Origin: a virus
Direction: 5' to 3' (one strand)
IMG/VR virus record: IMGVR_UViG_3300044684_000179
Span: 1-56,718 of that record
Length of the DNA stretch: 56,718 nucleotides
In this document: piece by piece, positions 1-55,425 of the stretch
Layout of the letters: the number at the start of each line of letters is the position of its first letter
Numbering within the stretch: the first letter of the stretch is position 1
Made by a program: the position numbers and the translations under genes
The notes under the pieces: generated by a model
What the model saw: the letters and a program-made list of their open reading frames with translations, nothing else
Told to the model about the DNA's origin: nothing
Database searches by the model: none

Positions 1-127
1 GGTCCGCTGGACGCAGGAGAACGGCGGCAACGGCTCCGACCCGTTCAAGCTGACCGCGGGCGGCATGATCTCGCAGTATTTCAACCCGTTCATGCCCAAC
101 GGTGGTCAGATGATTCCCATCATGATC
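1..127. repeat. Terminal direct repeat, left copy
   Basis: Bases 1-127 are identical to 56592-56718. A perfect 127-base repeat at both ends of a contig, lying inside one continuous reading frame (the capsid gene), is the usual trace of a circular assembly graph closed with an overlap of that length. It is therefore most likely an assembly overlap and not a biological terminal redundancy. The unit genome is 56,591 bp. Confidence 0.95.
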
Positions 128-358
128 CACCCGAAGGTGCCGCCCGGCACCATCCTCGCGTACTGCGAAGAGCTGCCCGTGTACTACCAGAACAACGAGG
201 TGGCGAACGTGGCCGAGGTGAAGACCCGCCAGGACTACTACCAGATCGACTGGCCGCTGCGCACCCGCCAATACGAAACCGGCGTCTACGCCGAGGAAGT
301 GCTGGCGGTGTATTGCCCGTTCGCGATGGCGACCATCACGAACGTCGCCAACGGCTGA
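1..358 (+). CDS. Major capsid protein, C-terminal part (continues from 55450)
   Basis: This is the 3' end of the capsid gene that starts at 55450; the window edge splits it. The first base is the third base of a codon, the frame runs from base 2, and the stop is TGA at 356-358. Joined across the circle the gene encodes about 499 residues. The C-terminal part contains TRQDYYQIDWPLRTRQYETG and ends in a hydrophobic strand-rich segment, as expected for the P-domain of an HK97-fold capsid. The product forms the icosahedral shell. Confidence 0.85.
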   Translation, partial: VRWTQENGGNGSDPFKLTAGGMISQYFNPFMPNGGQMIPIMIHPKVPPGTILAYCEELPVYYQNNEVANVAEVKTRQDYYQIDWPLRTRQYETGVYAEEVLAVYCPFAMATITNVANG

Positions 359-368
359 TGCCCGAGGC

Positions 369-398
369 ACCGGGCGGCGCCAAAGCGGGCCGCCCGGT
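369..398 (+). other. Perfect 10-bp hairpin after the capsid gene
   Basis: ACCGGGCGGC (369-378) is the exact reverse complement of GCCGCCCGGT (389-398), with a 10-base loop. There is no T-run after it, so it is not a classical terminator. Its place directly after the most strongly expressed structural gene suggests transcript attenuation or 3'-end protection of the capsid mRNA. Confidence 0.6.
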
Positions 399-422
399 CC
401 AAGTCCACAAGCGGAGAACACC

Positions 423-767
423 ATGCGCATGAAAGCACCCGCGGGTTGCACGAGCATCAACTTCGGCGGCGATGTGATCGAGGTGGTCGATGGCTTCGCC
501 ACGATCCCGCAAGAGCTGGTTGCGGACGCGACCTCGCACGGCTTCGTTGTCGCCCCCGAGGGCGACACCTTGAGCGACATCGACCTCGCGGCGGAAGCGA
601 AGTTCGCCGAGGTGAAGCGTAGTCGCCGCAAGAAGGGCGCGCCTGATGCGCCGGCCGATGGCGAACAGTCGAAACAGTCCGGTGAACAGCCGCAGGCTGA
701 GGCGCAGCCGGAGCAGCCGCAGCAGGTCGAGCAGGCGCTCGACGGCGGCGAGCAGCCGCAGGCTTAA
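423..767 (+). CDS. Hypothetical head-region protein with Q/E-rich tail
   Basis: 114 residues between capsid and head-tail connector. The start is chosen for the GGAGAA sequence about 7 bases upstream. The first 60 residues look folded (INFGGDVIEVVDGFATIPQE); the rest is a basic patch (KRSRRKKG) followed by a low-complexity tail of Q, E, P and A. Many phages carry a small protein of this kind, with a short N-terminal beta-rich domain, at this position, but its role is not known. Structural or head-completion function is inferred only from position. Confidence 0.7.
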   Translation: MRMKAPAGCTSINFGGDVIEVVDGFATIPQELVADATSHGFVVAPEGDTLSDIDLAAEAKFAEVKRSRRKKGAPDAPADGEQSKQSGEQPQAEAQPEQPQQVEQALDGGEQPQA

Positions 768-782
768 GCACGAGGGCTGGGC

Positions 783-1340
783 ATGGCCGCGGGCGATCTG
801 ACCGATCTGGCAACCGTCAAGGGGTGGCTCAGTATGACGGGCACGTCTGACGACGGCCTGCTCGCGTCGCTCATTACGGCCTGCTCTGCCGCCATTCAGA
901 GCTACCTGAACCGCAACTTTGCGCAGCAGGCTTACACCGAGCTGCGCAACGGCACCGGCACGAGCCGCATGGTGGTTGCGAACTACCCGCTCGTGTCGGT
1001 GCAATCCGTGCTCGTGAACGGCCAGGCCGTGCAGCAGTCTAGCGATGGATTCACGCAGTACGGGTGGACCTTCGACGACCGCGGCCTGACGATGATCGGC
1101 GATGTGTGGGCGCGCGGCACGCGCAACGTGCAGATCATTTACACCGCCGGCTACGCCTCGGTGCCGCTCGACATCGCGCAGACCTGCGCTGAGTGGGTGG
1201 CGTTCTGCTACCGCGAGCGCGACCGCATCGGCCACGCGAGCAAGAGCGTGCAAGGCGAGACGACCGCCTACATCACCGCCGCGATGCCGCAGCGCGTGCA
1301 GCTCATGCTCTCGCAGTACAAGAAGGTGGTGCCGCTGTGA
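783..1340 (+). CDS. Head-tail connector protein (gp6-like)
   Basis: 185 residues. The N-terminus (LTDLATVKGWLSMTGTSDDG, then LLASLITACSAAIQSYLNR) is the helical start typical of HK97 gp6 / SPP1 gp15-type adaptors, which form a ring below the portal. A central beta region (YPLVSVQSVLVNG; RNVQIIYTAGY) and a C-terminal helix (CAEWVAFCYRERDRIG) complete the family pattern, and the length is normal. The TGA stop overlaps the ATG of the next gene (TGATG), indicating coupled translation. Confidence 0.75.
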   Translation: MAAGDLTDLATVKGWLSMTGTSDDGLLASLITACSAAIQSYLNRNFAQQAYTELRNGTGTSRMVVANYPLVSVQSVLVNGQAVQQSSDGFTQYGWTFDDRGLTMIGDVWARGTRNVQIIYTAGYASVPLDIAQTCAEWVAFCYRERDRIGHASKSVQGETTAYITAAMPQRVQLMLSQYKKVVPL

Positions 1341-1810
1341 TGCTCACCGCCAAGCTGGTGAACGGCGAAAGCCTGATCGCCAACACCAACGCCTTCACCG
1401 CCAAGATGATGGCGCGGCTGCGTGTCATCGTGGCCCGCATCGCCGTCGAAATGGTGGCGCGCGTGAAGGCCGACAAGCTCTCCGATCAGGTTCTGCACGT
1501 GCGCACCGGCCGGCTGCGCCGCTCGATCACCTACCGCATGGAAGAGGGGAAGAACACCGCCAAGGCGGTGGTCGGCACGAACCTCGCCTATGGTCGCGCG
1601 CAGGAGTACGGCTTCAGCGGCGTCGTCTCGGTGCGCGAGCACATGCGTCGCACGAAGACTGGCGACACCACGGTGCGCGCGCACACCATGCGCATGAACC
1701 TGCCGGAACGCAGCTACTTGCGCTCGACCCTGAGCGACATGAAGGATGACATCGCGCAGCGCATCACCGACGCGGTGCTGCACGGCAAGGGCGTGGAGGC
1801 CATCGCATGA
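1340..1810 (+). CDS. HK97 gp10-like head-tail joining protein
   Basis: 156 residues, starting at the ATG that overlaps the preceding stop codon. The segment VRTGRLRRSITYRMEEG, followed by VVGTNLAYGRAQEYGF, is characteristic of the HK97 gp10 / minor capsid family acting at the head-tail interface. The order connector, gp10-like, tail terminator, tail tube matches HK97-like modules. The stop overlaps the next ATG by four bases. Confidence 0.8.
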   Translation: MLTAKLVNGESLIANTNAFTAKMMARLRVIVARIAVEMVARVKADKLSDQVLHVRTGRLRRSITYRMEEGKNTAKAVVGTNLAYGRAQEYGFSGVVSVREHMRRTKTGDTTVRAHTMRMNLPERSYLRSTLSDMKDDIAQRITDAVLHGKGVEAIA

Positions 1811-2232
1811 CGCGCGAGCCCATCTGCCAAGCCCTGTTCACGAAGCTGCAGGCCGCGGCTGGCTTCGTCACGGTGAGCCGCAAGTTCAAGCACTTCGCGG
1901 ATGTGGCGCCGGCCGACCAGCCTGCGCTCATCCTCGTCTACCGGGGCGACAACGTAACGACCGTCCCGGGCCAGCCGAGCGTGACGACGCTTTCGTTCGA
2001 CGCGCTCATCTATGCCCACACCCGCGGCGATCCCGCCGTGGCGCCTTCGTCGGTGATGAACCCGCTGGTTGATGCCGTGGTTTCAGCACTGGCACCGGAG
2101 CCTGTGTCTGGCAAGCAGACGCTCGGCGGCCTCGTGCAGCACGCATGGGTCGAGGGGCGCATCGAGACCGACGAGGGTCTGCTGCAGGACCAGGGCTACG
2201 CCATCGTTCCCATTTCCATCAAGGCGGTCTGA
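1807..2232 (+). CDS. Tail terminator protein (gpU / DUF3168-like)
   Basis: 141 residues with an ATGA overlap to the gp10-like gene. N-terminal helix (REPICQALFTKLQAAAGFVT), then alternating strands (QPALILVYRG; VTTLSFDALIYAHT) and a long helix (NPLVDAVVSAL), the pattern of tail terminators that cap the tube. It lies directly upstream of the tail tube gene, the usual place. No single motif is diagnostic, so the call rests on size, fold pattern and synteny. Confidence 0.65.
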   Translation: MTREPICQALFTKLQAAAGFVTVSRKFKHFADVAPADQPALILVYRGDNVTTVPGQPSVTTLSFDALIYAHTRGDPAVAPSSVMNPLVDAVVSALAPEPVSGKQTLGGLVQHAWVEGRIETDEGLLQDQGYAIVPISIKAV

Positions 2233-2250
2233 CCCGCAAAGGACTCGACC

Positions 2251-3333
2251 ATGCAATACGCATTCGGTGCCGGCAATATGTACGTCACGCAGTTGCAAGA
2301 CGCGCGTGGCAACTCCATCAGCAACCCGACGCCGTACCCGCTCATGGCGCTGCAGGAGGGCTCGCTGTCCTTCTCTGGCGACATCAAGGAGCTGTACGGC
2401 CAGAACCAGTTCGCGGTGGCCGTCGGCCGCGGCAAGATGAAGCTCGAAGCAAACGTGAAGCCGGCGCGCATCTTCGCTGCCGTGTGGAACTCGATCTTCT
2501 TCGGGCAGACTCTCAGCGCCGGCCTGCTGGGCAACTACACCGACACGACCGGCTTCGCCGTGCCGAACACCATCGGCGTCACCGGCGCAACCTCGACGGG
2601 CGGCACCGGCTTCCAGGTCGGCGACATCCTCCAGGCCAGCACCGGCACGGTGTCGTCTGGCGGCGCGAAGGCAACCCTGATGGTGACGGCGGTGACCTCG
2701 GGCAACCCGACCGGCATCCAAGTGCTCACCCCCGGCAGCTACACGGTCGCGCCCACCGCCTCGGCGAGCAACTTCACGAACATCGGCAACGCCTTCACCG
2801 GCGTGGCCGGCAGTGGCACGGGCGCGACGCTCACGTTCACCACGGGCACGGGCACGGTGGCCGCGTCGCCGCCGGTGAATGGCACGCAGGCAGCGCCCGC
2901 CTTCAACGTCTTCGCCGCCGACCTGGGTTGCATCTATGCGTCCACCGGCATGCCGCTCAAGCGCGTGGCGTCGAATCCGTCCGCCGGCCAGTACGCGGTG
3001 AACACGACGACTGGCGTCTACACGTTCGCCTCTGGTGACGCCGGCGCCGTGGTGCTCATCAGCTACCAGTACAGCACCGGCAGCGGCTTTGCGGCCAACA
3101 GCACGGCCTCGATGCAGACCGTGCAGAACCTGCCGATGGGCTACGCGCCGACGTTCAAGGCCGACCTCACGGTGTCCTACCTGGGCAAGCTCACCACGTT
3201 CAGTTTCCCGATGGCGATTGCCACGAAGATGGACCTTGGGTTCAAGAACGAAGACTTCGCAGTGCCGCAGTTCGCTTTCCAGGCGTTCGACCCGGGCAAC
3301 GGCAACGTCATGAGCTGGAGCACGAGCGAGTAA
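2251..3333 (+). CDS. Major tail (tube) protein with inserted domain
   Basis: 360 residues. The N-terminus (LMALQEGSLSFSGDIKELYG, then QNQFAVAVGRGKMKLEANVK) and C-terminus (TFKADLTVSYLGKLTTFSFP; FAFQAFDPGNGNVMSWS) are typical of siphoviral tube proteins. Between about residues 85 and 255 lies a Gly/Thr/Ala-rich segment (TSTGGTGFQVGDILQASTGT; GTGATLTFTTGTGTV) that resembles a surface-exposed beta-sandwich insertion. It sits between the tail terminator and the frameshifted chaperone gene, and a large inverted repeat follows the stop. Confidence 0.8.
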   Translation: MQYAFGAGNMYVTQLQDARGNSISNPTPYPLMALQEGSLSFSGDIKELYGQNQFAVAVGRGKMKLEANVKPARIFAAVWNSIFFGQTLSAGLLGNYTDTTGFAVPNTIGVTGATSTGGTGFQVGDILQASTGTVSSGGAKATLMVTAVTSGNPTGIQVLTPGSYTVAPTASASNFTNIGNAFTGVAGSGTGATLTFTTGTGTVAASPPVNGTQAAPAFNVFAADLGCIYASTGMPLKRVASNPSAGQYAVNTTTGVYTFASGDAGAVVLISYQYSTGSGFAANSTASMQTVQNLPMGYAPTFKADLTVSYLGKLTTFSFPMAIATKMDLGFKNEDFAVPQFAFQAFDPGNGNVMSWSTSE

Positions 3334-3343
3334 TCCACCCACA

Positions 3344-3397
3344 GCATCGGCGCGGCCATATACACTACCGAAACGGTAGTTGAGGCCGCGCCGATGC
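3344..3397. other. Nested inverted repeat enclosing an operator-like palindrome
   Basis: The 14-base arms GCATCGGCGCGGCC (3344-3357) and GGCCGCGCCGATGC (3384-3397) are perfect complements and are followed by GCTTTTGGG. The 26-base loop holds ATATACACTACC, a possible -10 box, and the palindrome ACTACCGAAACGGTAGT. The outer stem could terminate transcripts from the tail tube gene while the loop provides a new start for the chaperone gene. Confidence 0.7.
3365..3379 (+). promoter_or_regulatory. CTACC-N5-GGTAG palindrome (site 1)
   Basis: CTACCGAAACGGTAG, the consensus member of the genome-wide family; here the symmetry extends to 7-base arms (3364-3380). TATACA lies just upstream as a -10-like sequence. 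The site precedes the tail chaperone gene by about 54 bases. Confidence 0.65.
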
Positions 3398-3432
3398 GCT
3401 TTTGGGCCTCGAACAGCGATCAGGAGCAACGA

Positions 3433-3765
3433 ATGGATGAGCAGCAACGCGCGCCGCAGATCGAGGGCGCGAAGGTGAGCATGGGCGGCAAGGATTGGGT
3501 AATCCCGGCTCTGTCTCTCGGGCAGGTGAAGCGCCTGCAAGGCAAGCTCGCGGCGCTGGGCAAGAAGGGCGGCACGGAGCTGCTGCAGGCCACCGACGAT
3601 GTGGTCGAAGTCGTGCACGCGGCGCTCTCGCGCAACTACCCCAACATCAAGCCGGAGGATGTGAGCGACATGCTCGACCTGCGCAACATGGGGCCGGCGG
3701 TACAGGCGGTGATGGGCCAGTCGGGGCTCGTCGAAAAGGGGGAGACGACGGCGGGGAGCCAATAG
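3433..3765 (+). CDS. Tail assembly chaperone, short form (gpG-like)
   Basis: 110 residues, start chosen at the ATG preceded by AGGAGCAACG. The protein is acidic/helical (SLGQVKRLQGKLAALGKKGG; TDDVVEVVHAALSRNYP) as in lambda gpG-type chaperones, which coat the tape measure protein during tail assembly. It lies between tail tube and tape measure genes. Near the 3' end a slippery heptamer allows a -1 shift into an overlapping frame, giving the longer G-T form. Confidence 0.8.
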   Translation: MDEQQRAPQIEGAKVSMGGKDWVIPALSLGQVKRLQGKLAALGKKGGTELLQATDDVVEVVHAALSRNYPNIKPEDVSDMLDLRNMGPAVQAVMGQSGLVEKGETTAGSQ

Positions 3766-4037
3766 ATTGGGATGAGCTGTACGCCCACCTGCTCGCCTGC
3801 TTTCCGGGCTGGACGTGGGAATACATCGACACCCAAATGACGCTGCCCCGCCTGCAAGCGATCACCAAGTACCAGAAGCAGTTCCCGCCAGTTCACGTGC
3901 TCGTTGCGGCCTACATGGGCGCGGGACGCTACCGCGAAGGCTCCGGCTCCGGCGGCATCGAACAGTCGAAGAACAGCGGGCTCGATGAAAACGGCGAAAG
4001 CCTGTTTGACCTGTTCCCGCGCACCCCAGGCACGTAG
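3433..4037 (+). CDS. Tail assembly chaperone, -1 frameshift form (gpGT-like)
   Basis: Reading the gpG frame to the heptamer A-AAG-GGG (3735-3741) and slipping back one base continues as GGDDGGEPIDWDELYAHLLA and ends at TAG 4035-4037. The extension adds about 100 residues, including CFPGWTWEYIDTQMTLPRLQ, the short Trp-rich helical T domain typical of this family (lambda G/GT). The T region has no good start codon of its own, which supports synthesis only by frameshifting. The T domain should recruit tube subunits to the tape measure. Confidence 0.8.
3735..3741 (+). other. Programmed -1 ribosomal frameshift site
   Basis: AAAGGGG in the phase A-AAG-GGG fits the X-XXY-YYZ rule for tandem slippage. 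It is ten codons before the gpG stop, and the -1 frame is open on both sides. G-rich sequence follows (GAGACGACGGCGGGGAGCC), which could slow the ribosome. Confidence 0.75.
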
Positions 4038-4059
4038 CCGGTAACCGAGAGGCACCAGC

Positions 4060-6732
4060 ATGGCAGAAGAAGGCGCAAACGTTGTAGTCGGCGGCGATGT
4101 AAGCGGCGCCACCGAGGCGCTGAAGAAGCTGCAGGAGCAGACCGCAGAGGCCGTTGAGGGCGTCAAGTCGGCGCTCGAAGGGATCAACGGGAAATTCGAG
4201 CTGGTCGGCAAAGCGTTCGCCGCGCTCACGGTCGCCATGGAGGGCGGCAAAGAGCTGGGCGAGTTCGTGAACAAGGCCGCCGAGATGGCGGAATCGGCTG
4301 AAGAGATGGGCCGCGCACTGGGCATCAGCACCAGCGAGGCCAGCACGTTCGCCGTAGCGCTCAACGGCGTGGATGTGAATGTGAACGCGGTGGCGCTGGC
4401 CGGGCGCCGCATCACGATGGCGCTCAACCAGGGCAGCACCGTGTTCGCCCAGCTCGGCGTTGCAACGAAGGATGCCAACGGCAACCTGCGCAACAGCCGC
4501 GACATCATGCTCGATGTCAACGACAAGCTGCGCGAGTTCAAGGCGGGCACCGACCGCAACATCGAGGCTCAGAAAATTTACGGCCGGCAGTACGAAGAGC
4601 TGCTGCCGATGATCGAGCGCTTCACCGGCGAGACCGCTGAGTCGCGCGAGAAGGCCGAAGCGCTCAACCTCGTCATTGGCGAGGAATCCGTCGAAGCCGC
4701 GCACAAGTACATCACCGCCAAGAAGGAAGTTGGCGACGTGATGGAGGGCGTGGAGCGCACCATCGGCGAAGCGCTCATTCCGCGCCTCACCGAGCTGGCC
4801 GAGTGGTTCTCCGGCATCGGCCCGACGGTAGTGACGGCCATGCGCGGCGTCATGGACCTGTACTGCGCCGCCCAAGATGCCGTCAGCGACAGCGTGCGCG
4901 CCCTGTGGGACGTGGCAAAGCAAGCCTTCTCTGCCATCGGCGAGTTGCTGAACGACATATTCGGGCCGGACAGCGCGCCGCAGAGCGGAATGACGCTGTT
5001 CAAGGACACGCTGCAGGTGATCGAAATGCTGTTCATCGGCTTCTCGACCGCCATCAAGATCGGCTGCGAGGGCATTGCCGCAGCCATCGACGTGTTCGTG
5101 GCGCGCATCCACGGCGCGCAAGACGTTCTTTCGCACCTCATGTCTCTCGACTTCGAGGGCGCAAAGAAAGCCTGGGACGATTGGGGAAAGTCCGTCGAAG
5201 AAATCGAGCGGCAGCACCTCGACAACGCGGTGAAAATCGCCCAGGAGGCGCAGGACAAGATCGCCAAGGCAATGGCCGGCGACCCCACGGCCAAGAAGAA
5301 GGGCAACGAGAAGGAAGACGAAGAGGGTGCCAGCGGCAAGCGCTCCAAGGGCAAGATCATCAGCAACAGCGACGCGCCATGGATGGCCGCGCTACAGCAA
5401 CGGCTCGCCATGCGCAAGGAGCTGCTTGCTGAAGAGCTGAAGGCCGTTGAGGATGCGCACAGCAAGGAGCTGCTCGACGAAAAGGCGTTCTATGAGCAGA
5501 AGCTCGCCATCGACACGGCCAACATCAACGCCGACATCGAGGCCAAGCAGGCGCAGTTGCGCAAGGTCAACGCCGACGCCGGCAAGGCCGAAAACTCCGA
5601 CGCCGAGAAGCAAAACGCCCTCAAGGCCCAGCGCTTGCAGCTCGAAGGCGAGATCGCGGTGCTGGTGCAAAAGCGCGCGGCGGCCGAGGCCGAGAACGAG
5701 CGGCAGATGCAAGAGGCGCTGGAGAAGCGCGGCATCGCGATGGCCCAGGCCGAAACCGAGAACCAGAAGAAGCTGCGCGACATCGAGATTGCCGGCAGGG
5801 AGGAAACGCTCAAGCACCTCAAGGACATCGGGCAACTGTCCGACGCTGAAGAGCTTGAGGCGCAGCGCCAGCTCCTGACCGAGAAGTACAACAACGAGAA
5901 GACCGCCATCGAGGCGCAAATCGAGCTGGCGAAGTACAGCGCGGCCGAGCGACAGAAGCTGGAGGATCAGCTCGCGCAGGTGACGGCGCAATACAACGTG
6001 GACATGGTGAAGAACGCGAACGACACCGCGACCGCCATGCAGAAGACGTTCGCCTCGTTCATCGACCCGGTGGTGGCCTCGATGCAGAGCGCCATCACGC
6101 AGATGGTGAACGGCACCATGTCGCTGCGGCACGCCTTCGAGTCGGTAGCGCAGTCGATCATCAAGACCGTGGCCGACATGGTTGCCAAGAAGGTGGCAAC
6201 GTGGCTCGCTGGCGAGGCGATGCAAACCGCCGCCACCATCACCGGCACGACCGTGCGCACTGCAGCCGAGACCACCGCGGCCACTGCGGGCGCCGCGGCC
6301 ACTGTTGCCGCGAAGGCCGGCGAAGCCACCGCCGTGGTGAGCGCCAACGCGGCCGAGGCTGCGAGCGGCGCCGCCGCCTCGGTTGCGCCGACACCATTCG
6401 TCGGGCCGGCGCTGGCCGCTGCGGCTTTCGCCTCGGTCTTTGCGCTGGTGCTCGGCGCCAGTGGCGCCATCAAGTCGGCGCGCGGCGGCTACGACATCCC
6501 CTCCGGCGTGAACCCGATCACCCAGCTTCACGAGGAAGAGATGGTGCTGCCGAAGGGGCCGGCGAACGCGCTGCGCGACATCGCTGAGAACGGGGTGGGG
6601 CGCAGCTCCGGCGACGTGCATTTCCATGTGAACGCGCTTGATGCCGCCAGCGTGAAAGACCTGCTCGTTCGCCACGGCCCGGCCATCGCCGAGTCGCTGC
6701 GCAAGCAAGGCCGCAACTTCGCATTCCTATGA
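4060..6732 (+). CDS. Tail tape measure protein
   Basis: 890 residues, the longest helical protein in the tail module. It sets tail length and is threaded through the tube. Long coiled-coil stretches (around residues 440-660, rich in E, K, A, Q), a hydrophobic helix in the middle (MLFIGFSTAIKIGCEGIAAA) and an Ala-rich C-terminal region with hydrophobic segment (PFVGPALAAAAFASVFALVL) followed by GGYDIPSGVNPITQLHEEE are typical. The C-terminal motif GGYDIP...LHEEEMVLP is common in tape measures of proteobacterial siphophages. The TGA overlaps the next ATG. Confidence 0.9.
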   Translation: MAEEGANVVVGGDVSGATEALKKLQEQTAEAVEGVKSALEGINGKFELVGKAFAALTVAMEGGKELGEFVNKAAEMAESAEEMGRALGISTSEASTFAVALNGVDVNVNAVALAGRRITMALNQGSTVFAQLGVATKDANGNLRNSRDIMLDVNDKLREFKAGTDRNIEAQKIYGRQYEELLPMIERFTGETAESREKAEALNLVIGEESVEAAHKYITAKKEVGDVMEGVERTIGEALIPRLTELAEWFSGIGPTVVTAMRGVMDLYCAAQDAVSDSVRALWDVAKQAFSAIGELLNDIFGPDSAPQSGMTLFKDTLQVIEMLFIGFSTAIKIGCEGIAAAIDVFVARIHGAQDVLSHLMSLDFEGAKKAWDDWGKSVEEIERQHLDNAVKIAQEAQDKIAKAMAGDPTAKKKGNEKEDEEGASGKRSKGKIISNSDAPWMAALQQRLAMRKELLAEELKAVEDAHSKELLDEKAFYEQKLAIDTANINADIEAKQAQLRKVNADAGKAENSDAEKQNALKAQRLQLEGEIAVLVQKRAAAEAENERQMQEALEKRGIAMAQAETENQKKLRDIEIAGREETLKHLKDIGQLSDAEELEAQRQLLTEKYNNEKTAIEAQIELAKYSAAERQKLEDQLAQVTAQYNVDMVKNANDTATAMQKTFASFIDPVVASMQSAITQMVNGTMSLRHAFESVAQSIIKTVADMVAKKVATWLAGEAMQTAATITGTTVRTAAETTAATAGAAATVAAKAGEATAVVSANAAEAASGAAASVAPTPFVGPALAAAAFASVFALVLGASGAIKSARGGYDIPSGVNPITQLHEEEMVLPKGPANALRDIAENGVGRSSGDVHFHVNALDAASVKDLLVRHGPAIAESLRKQGRNFAFL

Positions 6733-7904
6733 GTCAAACCGTCTACCCATCGCTGCCTGGAATCGCCTTCGGTGTGGAGCGCGCTCCAGTGTGGTCGAGC
6801 GACGTGCAGACCACGCCGAGCGGGCGCGAGTACCGGGGTGCGTTCATGACGTACCCGCGCTACCGCTACAAGCTGGTCTACGAGTTCCTGCGCGACACGT
6901 CGGTCTATCCCGAGCTTGCGACGCTGCTCGGATTCTTCAACGCGCGCCAGGGCCAATTCGACACGTTCCTGTTCAGCGATCCGACCGACAACAGCGTGGC
7001 GGGCCAGCAGCTCGGCTCGGGCGACGGAACGACGACCTCCTTCCAGCTCACGCGCACCTACGGCGCGTTCACCGAGCCGGTATATGACCTGAACGGCAGC
7101 CCAACGATCTATCGGCTGGATTGGCAAGGCAATCAGAAGCTCTACAGCAGCTCAAGAACAAATTGGATTGTTCAGTCTGAGGGCTGGAACCTTACCCCAT
7201 GGAGTCTTGTCAATGCAACCGTCACGACAGGCGTTGCATCACTCGACGGCCGCACCGGCGCTGCGACGCTCGTAGAGGACACCACCGCTACGGCGGGCCA
7301 CTATATCGCGCAGAGCGTTTCGTTCGTCTCAGGGCTCGCTTACTGCGTCTCCGTGTACTGCAAGCTAGGCGCAGGCAGCCGGTATGCGGAGCTTGTTCTG
7401 CCGTCAGCAGCGTTCGGCGGCAACATCATCGCAAACCTCGATCTGAACGTCGGGACCGTAGCAGTGTCGGGCGCCGGAGGCACGGCTGGCGCCACGAACA
7501 TGGGCGGAGGGTGGTGGCGCTTTTGGGTGGCTGGAACGGCCAATGCAAGCGCGAGCGGAGGCATCCAGTTCCGCCTTTCAAATGCGCTGACAGCCTACGG
7601 CCCGAGCTACACCGGCGACGGCTCCAGCTCGATCACGTTCTTCGCGCCAATGGTTGAGGCGGGCACAAGCACGCCAACCGCCTACTTCAAGACGACGAGC
7701 GCATCGGCCTCTATCACCGACTACGCCGTCAGCAGTACAGGGCTCGTCACGCTGGCCCAGGCGCCAGCCGTCGGCGCCGCACTCACATGGACCGGCGGCT
7801 ACTACTGGCGCTGCCGCTTCACCAGCGACACGCTCACGGCCGACCAGTTCATGAACAAGCTGTGGTCCGCCAAGACCGTGGATTTCATCACCGTGAAGCC
7901 ATGA
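6729..7904 (+). CDS. DUF2460-family tail tip protein with inserted carbohydrate-binding-like domain
   Basis: 391 residues, whereas DUF2460 proteins (as in gene transfer agents and related phages) are about 210. The N-terminus (GIAFGVERAPVWSSDVQTTP; FFNARQGQFDTFLFSDPTDN) and the C-terminus (TWTGGYYWRCRFTSDTLTAD; LWSAKTVDFITVKP) are canonical. Between residues of about 130 and 320 there is a jelly-roll-like insert (SEGWNLTPWSLVNATVTTGV; GGGWWRFWVAGTANASASGG; APMVEAGTSTPTAYF) like the carbohydrate-binding modules found on tail proteins. It is the first gene of a GTA-like tail tip set and overlaps both neighbours. Confidence 0.85.
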   Translation: MSQTVYPSLPGIAFGVERAPVWSSDVQTTPSGREYRGAFMTYPRYRYKLVYEFLRDTSVYPELATLLGFFNARQGQFDTFLFSDPTDNSVAGQQLGSGDGTTTSFQLTRTYGAFTEPVYDLNGSPTIYRLDWQGNQKLYSSSRTNWIVQSEGWNLTPWSLVNATVTTGVASLDGRTGAATLVEDTTATAGHYIAQSVSFVSGLAYCVSVYCKLGAGSRYAELVLPSAAFGGNIIANLDLNVGTVAVSGAGGTAGATNMGGGWWRFWVAGTANASASGGIQFRLSNALTAYGPSYTGDGSSSITFFAPMVEAGTSTPTAYFKTTSASASITDYAVSSTGLVTLAQAPAVGAALTWTGGYYWRCRFTSDTLTADQFMNKLWSAKTVDFITVKP

Positions 7905-8782
7905 AGACGCCGACCTGGGAACCATCGTCCGGCAACCTGCTTGCGTTCTTGAACGGAACGACGAGCGCCATCATGGCGGACCTCTACACGTTCACGCTCA
8001 CGAGCGGCGCGGTCTATCGCTTCACGAGCGGCGACGTTCCGCTCACCATCAACGGTCATACCTTCCTGCTCGGGCCGCGCTTCGAGCGCAGCAACATCCG
8101 CTGGCTTGTCGGCATCGAGGTGGACACGCTCACCATCGACCTGTTCGCAGATGACAGCATCCTCATCGGCTCCGCGCCGATCATCAGCGCTATCGCCTCT
8201 GGCCTGTTCGACAACGCGACCGTGCTGGTGGAACGCGCATTCTTCAATCAAGCCGGCGCGTGCCAAGGCACGCTTTACCAGTTCGGTGGCGTGGTGCAGG
8301 AGCCGGTGGCATACCGCGGCCACGCCCAGGTGCAGGTGGTGTCGAGCACGAGCCTGCTGAACATCCAGATTCCGACGGCGGTCTATCAACCCGGCTGCCG
8401 CAACACCTGGGCGGACTTGAACTGCAAGGTTGCGAAGGGCGTCTACCTGATTTCGAAGGCGGCCACCAGCACCACCGACTCTGCGCGTTCGACGTTCTCG
8501 GCCAGCTTCACCGGCACTCCCGCCGCCACCGATGGCTACCTGTCCCTCGGTGTGGCGACATGCACGTCCGGTCAGAACGCTGGCGTGAGCCGAACGATCA
8601 AGACGCACGCAGGCGGCGCAGTCACGGTGATTGCGCCATGGCCTTACCCGGTCGCCGTTGGCGACAACTTCAACTTCTACCCGGGCTGCGACAAGACGCA
8701 GAGCACGTGCCAATCGAAGTTCAACAACCTCCCGAACTTCGCGGCCGAGCCGTACATCCCTCAGCCTGAGACGGTGATGTGA
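7901..8782 (+). CDS. DUF2163 / BR0599-family tail tip protein
   Basis: 293 residues; the ATG at 7901 overlaps the DUF2460 stop (ATGA) and marks the true start of a longer frame. N-terminal DUF2163 features include LYTFTLTSGAVYRFTSGDVP and RSNIRWLVGIEVDTLTIDLF. The C-terminal part carries YPGCDKTQSTCQSKFNNLPN, a cysteine-containing signature of the phage BR0599 domain; gene transfer agent homologues use it in the tail hub. It acts with the DUF2460, NlpC/P60 and tip proteins encoded on either side. Confidence 0.9.
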   Translation: MKTPTWEPSSGNLLAFLNGTTSAIMADLYTFTLTSGAVYRFTSGDVPLTINGHTFLLGPRFERSNIRWLVGIEVDTLTIDLFADDSILIGSAPIISAIASGLFDNATVLVERAFFNQAGACQGTLYQFGGVVQEPVAYRGHAQVQVVSSTSLLNIQIPTAVYQPGCRNTWADLNCKVAKGVYLISKAATSTTDSARSTFSASFTGTPAATDGYLSLGVATCTSGQNAGVSRTIKTHAGGAVTVIAPWPYPVAVGDNFNFYPGCDKTQSTCQSKFNNLPNFAAEPYIPQPETVM

Positions 8783-9216
8783 TGGAACTGCGCGAGATGG
8801 AACAACGAGCGGCCGTCGTGCGCGAGGCGCGCGAGTGGCTTGGCACGCCATACCACCATCACGGCCGAGTCAAGGGCATCGGCGTGGATTGCGCGCAGCT
8901 CCTGTGCGGCGTGTTCGAGCGCGCAAGCATGGTGCCACACATCGACCTGGGCAACTATCCGCGCGACTGGCACCTGCACCGCGGCGAAGAGCTGTTCCTT
9001 GGATGGTTGCAGCGCGTCGGCGCGCGCCGCGTTGAACAGCCGCTGTTCGGTGATGTGGCCGTGTTCAGGTGGGGACGTTGCTTCTCGCATGGCGCCGTAA
9101 TGGTCGAGAGCGACCTCGCGCTGCACTCCTACATCGAGACCGGAGTCATCCTCACCCGACTGCACGAAGCCCCGCTTGAGGGGCGCGAAGTCCAATTCTG
9201 GAGCCTGTGGCAATGA
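8782..9216 (+). CDS. NlpC/P60 family tail peptidase
   Basis: 144 residues, start at the ATG overlapping the upstream stop (TGATG). VREAREWLGTPYHHHGRVKG then IGVDCAQLLCGVF supplies the catalytic cysteine of NlpC/P60 cysteine peptidases, and FSHGAVMVE supplies the histidine. These proteins sit in the tail tip of GTA-like and lambda-like (gpK) tails and cut peptidoglycan peptides during DNA entry. Length is normal for the family. Stop overlaps the tip protein start. Confidence 0.9.
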   Translation: MELREMEQRAAVVREAREWLGTPYHHHGRVKGIGVDCAQLLCGVFERASMVPHIDLGNYPRDWHLHRGEELFLGWLQRVGARRVEQPLFGDVAVFRWGRCFSHGAVMVESDLALHSYIETGVILTRLHEAPLEGREVQFWSLWQ

Positions 9217-12200
9217 GCGGCGGCAAGACCATCAGCAACAGCGAAAGCAAGATCGAGGCGCTGCAGCTTCAAAGCAGCGCCTACGGCGTCACCATCCCCG
9301 TTGTCGCTGGCGTGACGCGCATTGCTGGCAACCTCATCGACTACGAGGGCTTCAAGGCGGTTGCGACGACGACCACGCAGGGCGGCAAGGGTGGTGGGGT
9401 GAAGGTGCAGAACACCACCTACACCTACTATGCCTCGGTACTCATGGGCCTCGCTCACGGCCAGATCACCGACGTGCCGCGTATTTGGGTCGGCAAGAAG
9501 CTCTATCAGGCGTCGGGCGCCAGTGCGAGCTACGCGCAGGAGACCGACAACTACAGCGTGCCGGCCGGCGGCGGTACGTTCACAATCACGTCGCCATCGC
9601 AGTTTGGCTCGAACGTTTCGGTGGTCGCGTTCTCCATCCCGGAAATGGGGCCTGAAGTTGTGCTCGCCGAAGGCACCGACTACACGGTCTCGTCAGGCGC
9701 ATACACCTTCCCTTCGGGCTCCATTGCCTGCGGCTACAACGTCTCCGTCACGTACACGCGCCTCGTCACGCAGGCGGGGCAGACAGCATCGCAGCAGCTC
9801 GGCGTCACGCTGTTCACCGGGCCGGCGCAACAGTCGCCGCCATCCTGGCTGACGAGCAACTACCCTTCGCGGGCCATCAACTACCCGAATCTTGCCTACA
9901 TCAGCGCGTACAACTACCAGCTCGGCACCGGCGCGCAGGTAGACAACCATCTGTTCGAAGTGGTCGGGCCGAGCGCGTACTCGCTGGGCTCGTCGATCCC
10001 CGATGTGGACCCGTCGAGCTTCACGGCGAGTGTGCTGCAGAACACGCGCTACGGCGCGCGCCTGCCCGCAGCATTTGTTCCGGCGCCGACGCAGTGGTCC
10101 ACCTATTGCATCGCGTGCAACCTGCTCATGTCGCCAGCTCTCGACACGCAGTTGAGCGCGGCCGACTTCCTGAAGCAGATCACGAACCTCACGAACACCG
10201 CCGTGGTGTGGAGCGACAACCAGCTCAAGTTCATACCCTACGGCGACACCACCGTCACCGGCAACGGCGCCACCTTCACGCCGAACGTCACGCCGGTCTA
10301 CGACCTCACCGACGACGCCTATGTGCCCGATCCGGGCAAGCCGCCAGTGAAGGTGACGCGCAAGGCTGGTGCTGACTGCTACAACCACTTCCGCATCCAG
10401 TTTCAGAATCGTTCGAACGACTACGCGCCAGAGATCGCGGAGGCCAAGGACCAGGCGGACATCGAGGCCAACGGCCTGCGTAGCGCCAACGTGATCGACG
10501 CGCGCACGTTCGTGTGCGACCCCCAGGTGGCCCGCAACATCGCCCAACTGTTGCTGCAGCGCTCGGTGTATGTGCGCCGCACCTTCGAGTTCTCGCTGCC
10601 GTGGGCCTTCGCTTTCTTGGAGCCGATGGACTTGGTGACGCTCACCGATTCATCGCTCAACCTGTCGAAGACCGCGGTTCGTATCACACAGATCGAGGAA
10701 AGCGGCGGCAAGCTCAACTTCACCGCAGAAGACTTCGCGCTCGGCGTCGCGCACGCGGCCACTTACAACACGCAGGTGAGCGCGGGCTACCTGCACAACT
10801 ACAACGTGTCGCCCGGCAGCGTCAACGCGCCGGTGCTGTTCGAAGCGCCGGCCGCACTCACTTCGAGCGGGCTCGAAGTATGGGCCGCAGTGAGCGGTAG
10901 CGGCCAGTATTGGGGCGGCTGCTCGGTGTGGGTTTCGATGGACGGCACGAACTACACCAAGGTGACCACCATCTACGGCGGTAGCCGCTACGGTCAATTC
11001 ACGAGCGGCGTGTCCGGCGGCGTGGCTCCTGTGCAGCTCGTGAATGGTCAGCTTCTGAGCGCTTCGACGGCCGACGCGAATGCGCTATCGACGCTCTGCT
11101 ATGCGGGCGGTGCGAGCCAGGAGTATTTCGCCTACGCGAGCGCGACACTCACCGGCACGAACCAGTACAACCTTGGCGGCCTTGTGCGCGGCGCCTACGG
11201 CACGGCGGGCGGCGCCACGCACTCTGCCGGCGATCCGTTCGTGCGGTGCGACGACTCCATCGCAAAGTCCGGCCCGCTCGACTTGTCGATGATCGGCAAG
11301 ACGATCTACTTCAAGTTCACCTCGTTCAATATCTTCGGCGGGGCTGAAGAGGTGATCTCGGCTGTATCGGCCTACACGTACACAGTCACCGGCTCCATGT
11401 ACAAGGTGAGCACGGACGGCGCGCAGAGCTTCTATCAGGAGACCGACCCCAGCACGCAGCAAGCCATCGGCATCGGAACGATTTGGGTGCAGCCTAGCAC
11501 CGGCATCATGAAGCGCTGGAACGGCACGAGCTGGGATGCCTACAGCGCGCTTGGCACGGCGGACGTGACGTTGGTCAATGGTGGTGGCTGCACTGTCGCC
11601 GGCAACGTCATCACCAAGACCGCGACGAACGCATGGGGCAATGGCGGCGCTTACAGCCAAGAGGGTTACACCGGGGGCGCCTACGCGCAGGCCATGGCGC
11701 CAGCGAACGGTACCGACATTTCCTTTGGCCTCAACACCGATCCAACGACAGACAACAACTGGACGAGCCTCGACTACGCGATTTACTGCGCTGCTTCCGG
11801 CAACGGTCTGTACGCACACGAGAGCGGCGTTCAGTCGGCTCAGATCGGAACGTGGGCGCCGGGTGACGTACTCACGGTTGCATACGACGGCAGCTCAGTC
11901 AAGTACATGCAGAACGGCACCGTCATTCGGTCGGTGACTGTCAGCTCGGGGAAGAAGTTCTACTTCGATAGTGCGCTCTATCAACAGGGCGCGACGCTGA
12001 AGGGCATTCGTTTCGGTCCCATGACCTCGAACGACTGGAGCAGCGTAGGCAATCGACCTAAGCAGTTCCGTGTGATTTCGGCCGGCTACAGTTCGACGAG
12101 CACGCCGTCGCCCGGCGCCGGGCTCTGGAATGGCGAGACCGGGGCCAACTACTACGGGGCAAGCCGCAGTTATAACCTCGCGCTCATTCAGCGATCCACG

Positions 12201-13160: not shown

Positions 13161-13171
13161 GGAGGAACACG

Positions 13172-13345
13172 ATGAGATTCAAGTTGGCAATCGTCACTGC
13201 ATGCGCCGTGTTGCTTGCAACAGCATTGGCCGCATGCGGCGGCGGTGGAGACGATGAACCCGCGGCGCAGACCACCATAAGTCGCGACGCATGCAATGAC
13301 CCGGCGGCGAAGCCGGAGAGCTGTTCGCTATTTGTTGGTCCATGA
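13172..13345 (+). CDS. Small lipoprotein (57 aa)
   Basis: A 57-residue product preceded by the strong ribosome site GGAGG six bases before the ATG. MRFKLAIVTACAVLLATALA then ACGGGGDDEP is a signal peptide with lipobox (LAAC) followed by Gly and acidic residues, so a lipid-anchored product is expected. Three more cysteines are in the mature part. It lies between the tail tip gene and the lysis cassette. Small phage lipoproteins at this place (for example T5 Llp type) can block the receptor for superinfecting phage; that role is inference here. Confidence 0.75.
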   Translation: MRFKLAIVTACAVLLATALAACGGGGDDEPAAQTTISRDACNDPAAKPESCSLFVGP

Positions 13346-13485
13346 ATTTCACACCCACCAAGGCGTACGGCTCGCGCCCAGGCTGCAGCCGCCACCACGC
13401 AGGATCAGAAGCTCAATGCTGTGACGTGGAGCGCGCCAAGCGCCGCAACCTGATTGTTCAACTTCGCCCATATCGACTACCATAA
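13342..13485 (+). CDS. Possible small overlapping reading frame (47 aa)
   Basis: An ATG overlapping the lipoprotein stop (ATGA) opens a 47-residue frame that ends within palindrome site 2. The product is Cys/His/Arg-rich (GCSRHHAGSEAQCCD) and resembles nothing known. Stop-start overlap is the normal coupling in this genome, which is the only support; it may be a chance frame. Confidence 0.25.
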   Translation: MNFTPTKAYGSRPGCSRHHAGSEAQCCDVERAKRRNLIVQLRPYRLP

Positions 13486-13491
13486 CGGTAG
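13477..13491 (+). promoter_or_regulatory. CTACC-N5-GGTAG palindrome (site 2)
   Basis: CTACCATAACGGTAG, 23 bases before the first gene of the lysis cassette. The same 15 bases occur before the small terminase gene (45215-45229). Confidence 0.6.
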
Positions 13492-13514
13492 CCGACCACA
13501 GCTGAGGTGGTCAC

Positions 13515-13874
13515 ATGACAGCTCTAACCGCGAGGCCGCGCCCGCTCATGCAATTCGATCTCTGGACCGTCGGGCAAGCCATTGGCGCGTCCGCCGTCAG
13601 TGGCGGCTTCGGCCTTCTGATGCTGCGCAAGTTCATGAAGGGCTGGGTTGCCGACGGCGCGCAGATCGAGACCGTGAATTTGCTGCGCGAGGAAGTGCGG
13701 CGACTCGGTGAAGTGAACACGCAGCTCGCAGAAGAGGTGAACCGCCTGCAGCTCCAGAACGTGAAGCTGCAGCGCGAAATCGCCTCACTGCACGGCCAAC
13801 TGTCCGAGTTCAAGGCGTTCCGCGAGGGGCGCGCTGCAGGCGAGACGGGCTTGCCGGAGGTGCCCACGCAATGA
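13515..13874 (+). CDS. Membrane-anchored coiled-coil protein, lysis cassette
   Basis: 119 residues. One hydrophobic segment near the N-terminus (ASAVSGGFGLLMLRKF, about residues 24-40) is followed by a long coiled coil (LLREEVRRLGEVNTQLAEEV; NRLQLQNVKLQREIASLHGQ). The start follows GAGGTGGTC. The stop overlaps the lysin candidate start. Position at the head of the lysis genes suggests a lysis-related or envelope protein, but no family was recognised. Confidence 0.7.
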   Translation: MTALTARPRPLMQFDLWTVGQAIGASAVSGGFGLLMLRKFMKGWVADGAQIETVNLLREEVRRLGEVNTQLAEEVNRLQLQNVKLQREIASLHGQLSEFKAFREGRAAGETGLPEVPTQ

Positions 13875-14290
13875 AGCTCATCGTCAACCGCGCCGGCACG
13901 CACGGCGACGCCACGCTCGGCGATCTCAGCATCGACGGCCAACCCTTCTGCCACACGCTCGAAGACCTCGTTCGCGAGGTTCCCGGCCAGCCTGTTGAGG
14001 CTTGGAAGGTGCCCGGCGAAACCGCCATCCCGCGCGGCACCTACAAAGTGGTCATCGACTACAGCCCGCGCTTCGGTCGCAACATGCCGCATGTGCTCGA
14101 TGTGCCAGGGTTCGAGGGTGTGCGCATCCACACCGGCAACACGCCGGCCGACACCGAGGGGTGCATTCTCGTCGGATACATCGAGGCCGGCGGCACCATC
14201 GAGCGCTCGCGCGACGCCTTCACCGAGCTGTTCGCCCGCTTGAACGCGGCGATCTCGAACGGTGAGGCGGTCGAAATCGAGGTGCGCTGA
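13871..14290 (+). CDS. DUF5675 family protein, putative endolysin
   Basis: 139 residues. The segment HTLEDLVREVPGQPVEAWKV, then GETAIPRGTYKVVIDYSPRF and VRIHTGNTPADTEGCILVG, is the DUF5675 pattern. The His in RIHTGN and the Cys in DTEGCI are arranged like the catalytic residues of L,D-transpeptidase-fold enzymes, so a peptidoglycan-peptide-cleaving or transferring activity is plausible. No other lysozyme-like gene is seen, and the gene stands between a membrane protein, a holin-like gene and the spanins, which makes it the best candidate for the cell-wall lysis enzyme. Confidence 0.7.
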   Translation: MKLIVNRAGTHGDATLGDLSIDGQPFCHTLEDLVREVPGQPVEAWKVPGETAIPRGTYKVVIDYSPRFGRNMPHVLDVPGFEGVRIHTGNTPADTEGCILVGYIEAGGTIERSRDAFTELFARLNAAISNGEAVEIEVR

Positions 14291-15421: not shown

Positions 15422-15428
15422 CGGCGCC

Positions 15429-15713: not shown

Positions 15714-15717
15714 TTCC

Positions 15718-15732: not shown

Positions 15733-15803
15733 TAGTGTACCCAGGGGAGACCAAGCGCCCTACGCACGGGACGCGCCAACAGGTAGCCGGAAAGACTAAA
15801 CGG

Positions 15804-15818
15804 CTACCGGAAAGGTAG
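15804..15818. promoter_or_regulatory. CTACC-N5-GGTAG palindrome (site 3) beside attP
   Basis: CTACCGGAAAGGTAG within GGCTACCGGAAAGGTAGC. A partial copy (GGTAGCCGGAAAGACTA) starts at 15782. These lie about 60 bases from the attP core and could bind the repressor or act in integration. Confidence 0.5.
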
Positions 15819-15829
15819 CGCAATATCTT

Positions 15830-15924: not shown

Positions 15925-15931
15925 AAAACAC

Positions 15932-25930: not shown

Positions 25931-25945
25931 CTATCCTTTTGGTAG
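25931..25945 (-). promoter_or_regulatory. Palindrome site 4, fused to the ribosome site of the Sak4-like gene
   Basis: On the minus strand CTACCAAAAGGATAG, immediately followed by GAG of the ribosome site, 9 bases before the ATG. Repressor binding here would overlap the translation start region. Confidence 0.6.
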
Positions 25946-26392: not shown

Positions 26393-26422
26393 ACTATACT
26401 GCCAAAATGGTAGCAAAAGCAA
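26393..26422 (-). promoter_or_regulatory. Promoter with palindrome site 5 in its spacer
   Basis: On the minus strand TTGCTT (26422-26417), an 18-base spacer, then TATAGT (26398-26393). The palindrome CTACCATTTTGGCAG (26413-26399) occupies the spacer directly before the -10 box, so a bound repressor would block RNA polymerase. It drives the 121-residue protein and genes after it. The A-rich stretch beyond it on the plus strand contains CAAAACAGTC and CAAAACAGCC repeats. Confidence 0.6.
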
Positions 26423-30928: not shown

Positions 30929-30943
30929 ATAACAAAAAGGTAG
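30929..30943 (-). promoter_or_regulatory. Palindrome site 6 at the early leftward promoter
   Basis: Minus strand CTACCTTTTTGTTAT, followed by CG. The left half of the palindrome has changed so that GTTAT/TTATCG could serve as the -10 box, as in site 10 (40560), where TATATT overlaps the site end. Located 70 bases before the Cro-like start codon. Confidence 0.5.
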
Positions 30944-31221: not shown

Positions 31222-31236
31222 CTACCAATTAGGTTG
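31222..31236 (+). promoter_or_regulatory. Degenerate palindrome over the repressor -35 box
   Basis: CTACCAATTAGGTTG: its right half contains the first bases of TTGACA (31234-31239), so binding would affect repressor transcription (autoregulation). Confidence 0.45.
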
Positions 31237-31341: not shown

Positions 31342-31935
31342 ATGCGTACCCAAGCAGTTAAAGAACCGTTCAATGTCGCTCTCGTGAGCGTCAAAAGCCG
31401 TCCCGTCAAACGGAGCCCCGGGAGTGCTGCCTTGGCCTCAGATAAGAGCATCTACGACATTCGATTCGAGAACTTCCAGCTACTGTTCTCGGCCTTCAAG
31501 GTAAAGCTCAAGCGTGACTTCCCCGGCGAGCCGGATCGAGGCATGCTGCGCAAGTTCGCAAGCCGCGCCGGCCTCGACGAGCGCTATGCGAGCCACCTGA
31601 ATGTGCGTCGCAAGACAGTGGGCAGCAACACGGCCCGCTCGATGGAGACGGCGCTCGGCTTGCCGGTGAACTTCATGGATCACCCGCACCCCGAGCTGGG
31701 CGAGGAAGCGGTCATTGCGCTGTTGGAGGGCCGCAAGCCTGAGCTGCGTCAGGTGCCTAGCCAAGGCGCGATGCCGGGGCTTCCCGACCTAAGCACCGAC
31801 AAGGGCCTGGAGACCTTCGTCAAGGCTGCGGTGGACGTGTACCGCTGGAGCCCGGAGCGCGCGCAGGCCGCGATGGTTGCGCTGCTGCTCGAACGCCTGA
31901 GCAAGGGCGGTAAGGATGACGGTAACGGTTCCTGA
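31342..31935 (+). CDS. Phage repressor (HTH)
   Basis: 197 residues; a single rightward gene facing away from the Cro-like gene. LRKFASRAGLDERYASHLNV then RRKTVGSNTARSMETALGLP is a lambda-repressor-like HTH whose second part (ARSMETALGLPVNFMDHPHP) is common in phage repressors. There is an N-terminal extension (FENFQLLFSAFKVKLKRDFP) and a C-terminal helical tail, but no S24 self-cleavage domain, so induction by RecA-driven cleavage is not expected from this protein. The start is uncertain; other in-frame starts lie upstream (TTG 31261). Confidence 0.7.
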   Translation: MRTQAVKEPFNVALVSVKSRPVKRSPGSAALASDKSIYDIRFENFQLLFSAFKVKLKRDFPGEPDRGMLRKFASRAGLDERYASHLNVRRKTVGSNTARSMETALGLPVNFMDHPHPELGEEAVIALLEGRKPELRQVPSQGAMPGLPDLSTDKGLETFVKAAVDVYRWSPERAQAAMVALLLERLSKGGKDDGNGS

Positions 31936-36357: not shown

Positions 36358-36372
36358 CTCCCGTTTTGGTAG
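36358..36372 (-). promoter_or_regulatory. Palindrome site 7, fused to the ribosome site of the VWA-like gene
   Basis: Minus strand CTACCAAAACGGGAG; the last five bases serve as Shine-Dalgarno (GGGAG) six bases before the ATG. Lies in the 35-base gap between two genes of one operon. Confidence 0.55.
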
Positions 36373-37857: not shown

Positions 37858-37872
37858 GTACCAAAAAGGTAG
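37858..37872 (-). promoter_or_regulatory. Palindrome site 8 before the MoxR ATPase gene
   Basis: Minus strand CTACCTTTTTGGTAC, preceded by TTGCAG and followed by ACAATAC (a -10-like sequence). Located 60 bases before the ATG. Confidence 0.55.
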
Positions 37873-38624: not shown

Positions 38625-38639
38625 CTCCCGAAAAGGTAG
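38625..38639 (-). promoter_or_regulatory. Palindrome site 9, fused to a ribosome site
   Basis: Minus strand CTACCTTTTCGGGAG, 6 bases before the ATG of the DUF6011-like gene; GGGAG is the ribosome site. Confidence 0.55.
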
Positions 38640-40556: not shown

Positions 40557-40584
40557 AATATACCAAAAAGGTAGCGGCTACCAA
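40557..40584 (-). promoter_or_regulatory. Leftward promoter with palindrome site 10
   Basis: On the minus strand TTGGTA (40584-40579), 16 bases, then TATATT (40562-40557). The palindrome CTACCTTTTTGGTAT (40574-40560) fills the spacer and overlaps the -10 box, so repressor binding would shut off the 40506-32306 operon. Confidence 0.6.
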
Positions 40585-45214: not shown

Positions 45215-45229
45215 CTACCATAACGGTAG
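45215..45229 (+). promoter_or_regulatory. CTACC-N5-GGTAG palindrome (site 11) before terminase
   Basis: CTACCATAACGGTAG (arms extend to GCTACC/GGTAGC), 41 bases before the small terminase ATG; identical to site 2 before the lysis cassette. Confidence 0.65.
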
Positions 45230-50330: not shown

Positions 50331-50345
50331 CTACCGAAAGGGTAG
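50331..50345 (+). promoter_or_regulatory. CTACC-N5-GGTAG palindrome (site 12)
   Basis: CTACCGAAAGGGTAG with arms extended to CAACTACC/GGTAGTTG (50328-50348), 38 bases before the SGNH hydrolase gene. Confidence 0.6.
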
Positions 50346-53656: not shown

Positions 53657-53671
53657 CTACCAAAAGGATAG
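53657..53671 (+). promoter_or_regulatory. Palindrome site 13, fused to the protease ribosome site
   Basis: CTACCAAAAGGATAG, two bases before ATG 53674; AAAGGA serves as ribosome site. TTATACACT is upstream as a -10-like sequence. Confidence 0.6.
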
Positions 53672-55410: not shown

Positions 55411-55425
55411 CTACCAAAACGGTAG
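55411..55425 (+). promoter_or_regulatory. CTACC-N5-GGTAG palindrome (site 14) before capsid
   Basis: CTACCAAAACGGTAG, 24 bases before the capsid ATG, close to its ribosome site (CGGAGAACC). Confidence 0.6.

Follow-up and report, generated by a model that had tools for sequence, protein, structure and literature searches.

We analyzed the full 56,718 nt of the virus record IMGVR_UViG_3300044684_000179 (hereafter the window), in which a nested inverted repeat separates two putative tail genes. Just ahead of position 2251 lies a tail-terminator-like gene, and the product of the gene at 4060 resembles a tape measure protein; from these neighbors, the frame at 2251–3333 is assigned the position of the major tail tube gene and the frame at 3433–3765 that of the tail assembly chaperone. 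Both genes have PHROG matches solely of unknown function. The gap between the first frame and the ATG at 3433 is 99 nt long and is mostly filled by the repeat, whose arms GCATCGGCGCGGCC and GGCCGCGCCGATGC are 100% complementary over 14 bp and lie 26 nt apart; a perfect repeat of 14 bp is what a preliminary description of this DNA had claimed. The enclosed 26 nt read ATATACACTACCGAAACGGTAGTTGA and contain the dyad CTACCGAAACGGTAG, which can itself pair over 7 bp (ACTACCG/CGGTAGT) around an AAA loop; RNA of 3344–3397 is therefore predicted to fold as one long hairpin. Rfam gave no match for the element, and a search of positions 3300–3450 against phages returned none. Near the stop of the chaperone-position frame, within its overlap with a -1 frame ORF that extends to 4037, lies A_AAG_GGG (3735–3741), a likely site of programmed -1 frameshifting; the lambda G/GT pair is the precedent for such frameshifting in tail chaperone genes.

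The record carries a 127-bp direct terminal repeat (1–127 and 56592–56718) which makes it probable that the phage genome is complete and either circular or circularly permuted; the gene at the capsid position spans the record end, from 55450 through the end to 358. A stretch at 15878–15926 resembles a tRNA 3′ end and is 96 to 100% identical in three phage records, and ARAGORN detected no complete tRNA. Lying near a weak tyrosine-integrase match (17632–18708), this stretch is a likely attP, and the phage is therefore probably temperate.

Table 1. Features of the tail gene gap, the candidate repressor gene, and the candidate operators of the window.
Feature	Coordinates	Strand	Remarks
Putative major tail tube gene	2251..3333	+	position between tail-terminator-like and tape measure genes
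Outer stem, 5′ arm	3344..3357	+	perfect 14-bp
-10-like box TATACACT	3359..3366	+	without supported -35
Candidate operator dyad CTACCGAAACGGTAG	3365..3379	.	top-scoring window site with matrix from another phage's sites
Outer stem, 3′ arm	3384..3397	+	tail GCTTTTGGG directly after
Putative tail assembly chaperone gene	3433..3765	+	by position; overlaps -1 frame ORF to 4037
Candidate operator, perfect	13477..13491	+	23 nt before 13515; place resembles pre-lysis-cassette operators in two other phages
Candidate operator, perfect	15804..15818	.	gap preceding attP-like tRNA 3′ end (15878–15926)
Candidate operator, 1 mismatch	25931..25945	-	9 nt upstream of minus-strand gene 24998–25921
Candidate operator, 1 mismatch	26399..26413	-	between -35 TTGCTT and -10 TATAGT, before 25983–26348
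Operator-like, 2 mismatches	30929..30943	-	69 nt upstream of gene 30470–30859
Candidate operator, 1 mismatch	31222..31236	+	overlaps -35 of TTGACA-17-CATATT upstream of repressor gene
HTH repressor, candidate dyad binder	31342..31935	+	197 aa; helix ERYASHLN
Candidate operator, 1 mismatch	36358..36372	-	5 nt upstream of gene 35483–36352
Candidate operator, 1 mismatch	37858..37872	-	60 nt upstream of AAA ATPase gene 36388–37797
Candidate operator, 1 mismatch	38625..38639	-	6 nt upstream of gene 37998–38618
Candidate operator, 1 mismatch	40560..40574	-	overlaps promoter-like pair TTGGTA-16-TATATT, before 40297–40506
Candidate operator, perfect	45215..45229	+	41 nt upstream of terminase small subunit-like gene (45271)
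Candidate operator, perfect	50331..50345	+	38 nt upstream of 50384 (GDSL lipase-like protein)
Candidate operator, 1 mismatch	53657..53671	+	2 nt upstream of head maturation protease-like gene (53674)
Candidate operator, perfect	55411..55425	+	24 nt upstream of 55450 (capsid-position gene; PHROG of unknown function)

Folding of RNA 3334–3410 yielded -46.8 kcal/mol (z = -7.5), a value that none of 200 shuffles equaled. When the gap was shuffled locally with dinucleotide content preserved, none of 500 sequences reached a 14-bp repeat, the longest being 10 bp. Genome-wide, there is one other perfect 14-bp inverted repeat whose arms are separated by less than 60 nt, and it lies inside a coding gene. 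Because of this second repeat and a G+C content of 65%, the 14-bp stem alone is only mildly unusual: improbable at its location, not extraordinary genome-wide.

The preliminary description had proposed conservation of both stems as a check, and the relatives of the tail tube gene do not bear it out. At 11 such loci, some of which are one virus present in two collections, only 3 to 5 nt separate the stop codon from the next ATG; there is no operator in the gap and no arm longer than 7 bp within the first 150 nt. Judged by these loci, the stem is not conserved, and of the sequences compared, only those of the window's lineage have the insert at all. A tail tube search in phages with the same repressor family (see below) matched 0 of 9 records, in a search run without a positive control, so the site at 3365 cannot be followed by descent. 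Nor did an outer stem of more than 6 bp surround any of the other window operators among 14 tested, and a search for the combined stem-plus-operator pattern returned 51 stretches, none with an outer stem above 7 bp. One of these stretches, with two perfect and four one-mismatch sites and lacking a family repressor, was taken as a chance occurrence in G+C-rich DNA (L232). A portal protein search of viral contigs gave no confirmed match.

The palindrome in the loop, which the preliminary description had called conserved, belongs to a dispersed family. The window holds 6 exact and 10 one-mismatch copies of CTACC-N5-GGTAG, compared with means of 0 and 0.32 (maxima 0 and 2) in 100 dinucleotide shuffles, and the enrichment of CTACC/GGTAG is specific to a spacing of 5, other spacings giving nothing comparable. 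Fourteen of these 16 dyads are intergenic, the exceptions at 41219 and 54290 lying within genes. Scored with a weight matrix that came entirely from another phage (13 sites in L086 and L118), the dyad at 3365 ranks first in the window, and 15 of the 16 top sites are intergenic (binomial 6e-17), the intergenic share of this 93%-coding window being 6.9% by our own hand-corrected gene calls. The family and its intergenic placement are computed directly from the DNA. Where measured (13 sites), the dyad precedes the next start codon by 2 to 69 nt, and all six late sites that have a downstream gene lie within 2 to 53 nt of its start codon. In the late part (41080–56718 plus 1–15421), six of the eight gaps of at least 60 nt hold a dyad. 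The mismatch of the intergenic one-mismatch sites falls in the gene-proximal half in 8 of 8 cases; the corresponding numbers in relatives are 7 proximal, 2 distal, and 3 ambiguous, numbers to which L086 and L149 each contribute their orthologous sites. Four dyad 15-mers tried against literature text had no occurrence there.

Two details of individual sites are recorded here. At 25931, 36358, 38625, and 53657, the degenerate dyad half coincides with the purine-rich ribosome-binding region, and operator and Shine–Dalgarno sequence appear to share bases. At 40560–40592, adjoining one-mismatch and two-mismatch operators lie over the minus-strand promoter-like pair, as GGTAGCCGCTACC and then TTTTT.

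An exact 15-mer scan of viral contigs gave at least 120 loci, mostly single sites and chance-like. Among the matches listed, only contig L086 (with L118, from the same contig) has many sites, with 4 perfect and 7 one-mismatch copies in 12.8 kb around a gene for a small HTH protein (7121–7528). This protein is 43% identical over 88 aa to the window product 31432–31935, which is the C-terminal part of the 31342–31935 frame; by this homology to a protein surrounded by dyads, the latter is the candidate repressor gene. It lies behind a sigma-70-like promoter, TTGACA-17-CATATT, the -35 of which is overlapped by the dyad copy at 31222. Operators therefore adjoin their own repressor gene both in the window and in L086, where sites flank it.

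Used alone as query, the window protein found no relative in viral contigs, phages, or plasmids; the L086 protein and an alignment as queries recovered the repressor family. HTH_3 is detected, with a best E of 2.2e-4, in four of five family members; the one without it is the window protein. The family matches PHROG transcriptional regulators, and its profile matches the phage CI chain 7nkv in the PDB (E 2e-5). In an AlphaFold model of the window protein, the HTH core is predicted with confidence and the C-terminal part, which contains a helix pair, only weakly (pLDDT 45–96 by block, pTM 0.53); the model's best fold match is 5d50, a Salmonella-phage repressor (E 1.6e-3). From these data and the helix comparison below, it is very probable that the dyad at 3365–3379 is an operator of the phage's own HTH repressor. 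A protein bound at the loop palindrome, as proposed earlier, is supported by this reasoning, and the protein is most likely the product of 31342–31935.

To compare recognition helix and operator, 59 locus rows were scanned for dyads. The alignment search had given 40 loci with family members, and in the order of a Herbaspirillum genome 13 of 399 genomes gave 14 distant members; distant phage matches, including Shiga-toxin-converting phages, were left out of the comparison. The six EPDRGML-type rows whose helix is SH[IL]N (four phage records) all carry 11 to 16 CTACC-N5-GGTAG sites, versus no perfect and at most one one-mismatch site in each of the other 53 rows. The repressors of L086 and L149 are 90% identical, so the SH records amount to about three lineages. 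A distant protein of SHLK type (L212) is accompanied by no CTACC-N5-GGTAG sites. Records with an SQ helix instead carry GATAC-N7-GTATC, with 10, 11, 13, 4, 9, and 3 sites in six records and 0 to 2 for reversed-pattern controls; this dyad keeps the same TAC-N7-GTA frame. The SQ class is incomplete, since the SQ/SN-type loci L188, L163, and L190 have 0, 0, and 1 GATAC dyads. Overall, CTACC-N5-GGTAG is the dyad that accompanies SH[IL]N helices, and GATAC-N7-GTATC the one that accompanies most helices of SQ type.

The extent of the network varies among relatives. All 14 sites of G001 lie in 1977–17937 and all 13 of G003 in 26780–37981, so a whole-genome operator network is not general. Both specificities recur near lysis-type genes. 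The SH-type phage G002 has a perfect CTACC dyad 35 nt upstream of a small gene, behind which comes a gene for a GH19 endolysin. In the SQ-type G005, the same kind of gene pair (GH19) is preceded by a perfect GATAC dyad, and a terminator-like hairpin with its T-run separates this dyad from the gene. The perfect site at 13477 in the window lies 23 nt ahead of 13515, before a DUF5675 gene; the window gene would, by inference, act in lysis. Operators of either specificity at the entry to lysis-type cassettes argue for direct control of late genes.

The preferred reading of the locus, to which we assign a probability of roughly three in four, is a stoperator-like repressor roadblock in the lysogen combined with an RNA hairpin in lytic growth, the site being one of about 15 operators. 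These operators would precede early genes, packaging and head genes, the putative tail chaperone gene, and the lysis-position gene. In the lysogen, the dyad between the tube and chaperone genes would be occupied by the repressor, probably in dimeric form, and stray elongating polymerase would be halted there. In lytic growth, with the repressor gone, the same DNA would be transcribed into the 54-nt hairpin. This RNA may reduce read-through, shield the tube message at its 3′ end, or do nothing. The repressor gene and the helix–operator covariation are computed from sequence; binding, roadblock, and hairpin effect are inferred. A halted polymerase would presumably stop before the 3′ arm is made, so that roadblock and hairpin would act in different states. 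Taken singly, the roadblock at 3365 has about even odds; it would be the simplest role there, because late genes lie on both sides and no promoter was found. It is not the sole possible mode of action, given that the late sites sit 2 to 53 nt before start codons. Attenuation by the hairpin is the less probable part, at about one chance in three. More tentative still is the full two-state element, with a DNA roadblock in the lysogen and a lytic RNA hairpin that tunes the tail tube/chaperone ratio, in a phage family that would have palindromic operators immediately upstream of packaging, head, tail, and lysis genes.

Two other explanations of the locus are each improbable. By the first, the repeat is a plain intrinsic terminator or attenuator between the tube and chaperone genes, and the loop palindrome is incidental. 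Tail genes are needed in unequal amounts, and the 54-nt hairpin is a stable, perfect, G+C-rich intergenic stem (-40.6 kcal/mol) of a length not reached in the local shuffles. For the earlier suggestion of a terminator for tail tube transcripts, the stem is strong and the T-run weak. The tail GCTTTTGGG has four T, beginning 2 nt past the stem (nT 1.13), and the terminator d-score is -23.7 compared with +2.8 for the window's best terminator-like hairpin (44660–44691), a difference that is not decisive since the hairpin beside the attP-like stretch also scores below 0. The consensus terminator scanner is restricted to loops of 3 to 8 nt; a hairpin with a loop of 26 nt is outside its reach, and the lack of a hit says nothing against a terminator. 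Against this explanation also stand the membership of the loop dyad in an approximately 15-site family that tracks a repressor and the lack of such a stem at the 11 tail-tube-relative loci. An intrinsic terminator at 3344–3397 is, from its predicted features, doubtful.

By the second explanation, the site is an operator with a promoter, and the repressor controls a separate start for the chaperone and tape measure genes; this also seems unlikely. The -10-like box that had been described in the loop exists, as TATACACT just before the dyad, and this 8-mer recurs in the window only at 53643, again just upstream of a dyad, which is why we keep a weak promoter at 3365 as possible. Operators elsewhere do overlap or adjoin promoter-like pairs (31222, 26399, 40560, and 53657). 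No acceptable -35 partner was found at 3365, however: the best sigma-70 pair is CCCACA-17-TACACT, no better than local shuffles (p = 0.29), no sigma-70 promoter at 3340–3370 scores above chance, and a consensus promoter scan lists none at the loop. Local-shuffle p values for promoter-like pairs were 0.002 at 31222, 0.014 at 53657, 0.024 at 40560, 0.03 at 26399, and 0.04 at 45215 (uncorrected, 14 tests); those at 3365, 13477, 50331, 55411, and five others were not significant. By these pairs, 53657 and 45215 could be promoter operators. The earlier idea that a bound protein would both stop incoming polymerase and control a new start is thus divided: a block fits a site with late genes on both sides, and a start is not supported.

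It is far less probable that the CTACC-loop-GGTAG repeats are RNA elements, 5′ leader hairpins for boxB-like antitermination or translational control. A stem of 5 with a loop of 5 resembles the lambda boxB layout, several dyads overlap the ribosome-binding region, the sites lie 2 to 69 nt before start codons, and the late-region spacers are A-rich on the sense strand. We set this explanation aside mainly because early-region spacers are T-rich on the sense strand at five of eight sites. In several one-mismatch sites, moreover, the stem is disrupted and no second change restores it, a defect that would matter less to a DNA half-site; covariation ties the dyad to a helix that recognizes DNA; and some sites overlap promoter-like pairs, from which they would not be transcribed. 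An artifact of chance or composition, for which the two perfect 14-bp repeats at 65% G+C could be cited, is scarcely credible in view of the dyad statistics and the helix covariation.

The dispersed candidate operators have known counterparts. Actinophage phiC31 has conserved inverted repeats that are palindromic repressor sites dispersed in intergenic regions, in another host group and with a sequence other than that of the window dyads. Direct silencing of late genes by an immunity repressor is best known in actinobacterial phages; the sites there are asymmetric, whence the stoperator idea. L5 and other cluster A mycobacteriophages have 20 to 30 repressor sites genome-wide, in promoters and short intergenic spaces, through which the L5 repressor silences lytic genes in the lysogen; these stoperators are 13-bp, asymmetric, and oriented with transcription, with predicted monomer binding and a second "stoperator" domain (PMC9283540, PMC6550527). 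The window resembles L5 in its many candidate repressor sites, 15 of the top 16 intergenic, and differs in that its sites are palindromes of 15 bp and its candidate repressor is a short HTH protein from another family. Since the window dyad is palindromic, with partial orientation through the gene-proximal mismatches, the system is classed among dispersed repressor operators and not as an L5 stoperator.

Phage P1, a phage of Gram-negative bacteria, has 22 asymmetric 17-bp C1 operators widely dispersed over its genome, and an activated late promoter drives its late genes (PMC8546580). The window operators are likewise dispersed; they differ in being 15-bp palindromes of another sequence. In the T1-like phages Stevie and TLS, oriented intergenic repeats have been likened to stoperators by their authors; they are asymmetric (22 bp in Stevie), without an assigned function, and present in lytic phages (PMC4319613, PMC11447400). 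The window dyads are likewise dispersed and intergenic and, unlike them, palindromic. About fifteen sites along the genome suggest that the repressor shuts late genes directly, not just via one switch. A similar layout appears here in a different repressor family, whose operators are true palindromes and fall into two specificities matched to the recognition helix. Two points could therefore be studied in one system: the ability of an operator with dyad symmetry to halt elongating polymerase, and the way in which a change of repressor specificity is accompanied by change in the operator network. With its nested hairpin, the site is a ready-made construct for telling roadblock and hairpin effects apart.

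Two side observations follow. The GDSL lipase-like protein encoded at 50384–52372, amid structural genes, has an N-terminal segment that resembles, by eye, that of the 50001–50294 protein. In an SQ-type phage (L223:1515–1612), an operator stands before a lysis-type gene and is followed by a canonical terminator-like hairpin with TTTTTCTTTTT and then by the start codon, a second operator-plus-hairpin arrangement.
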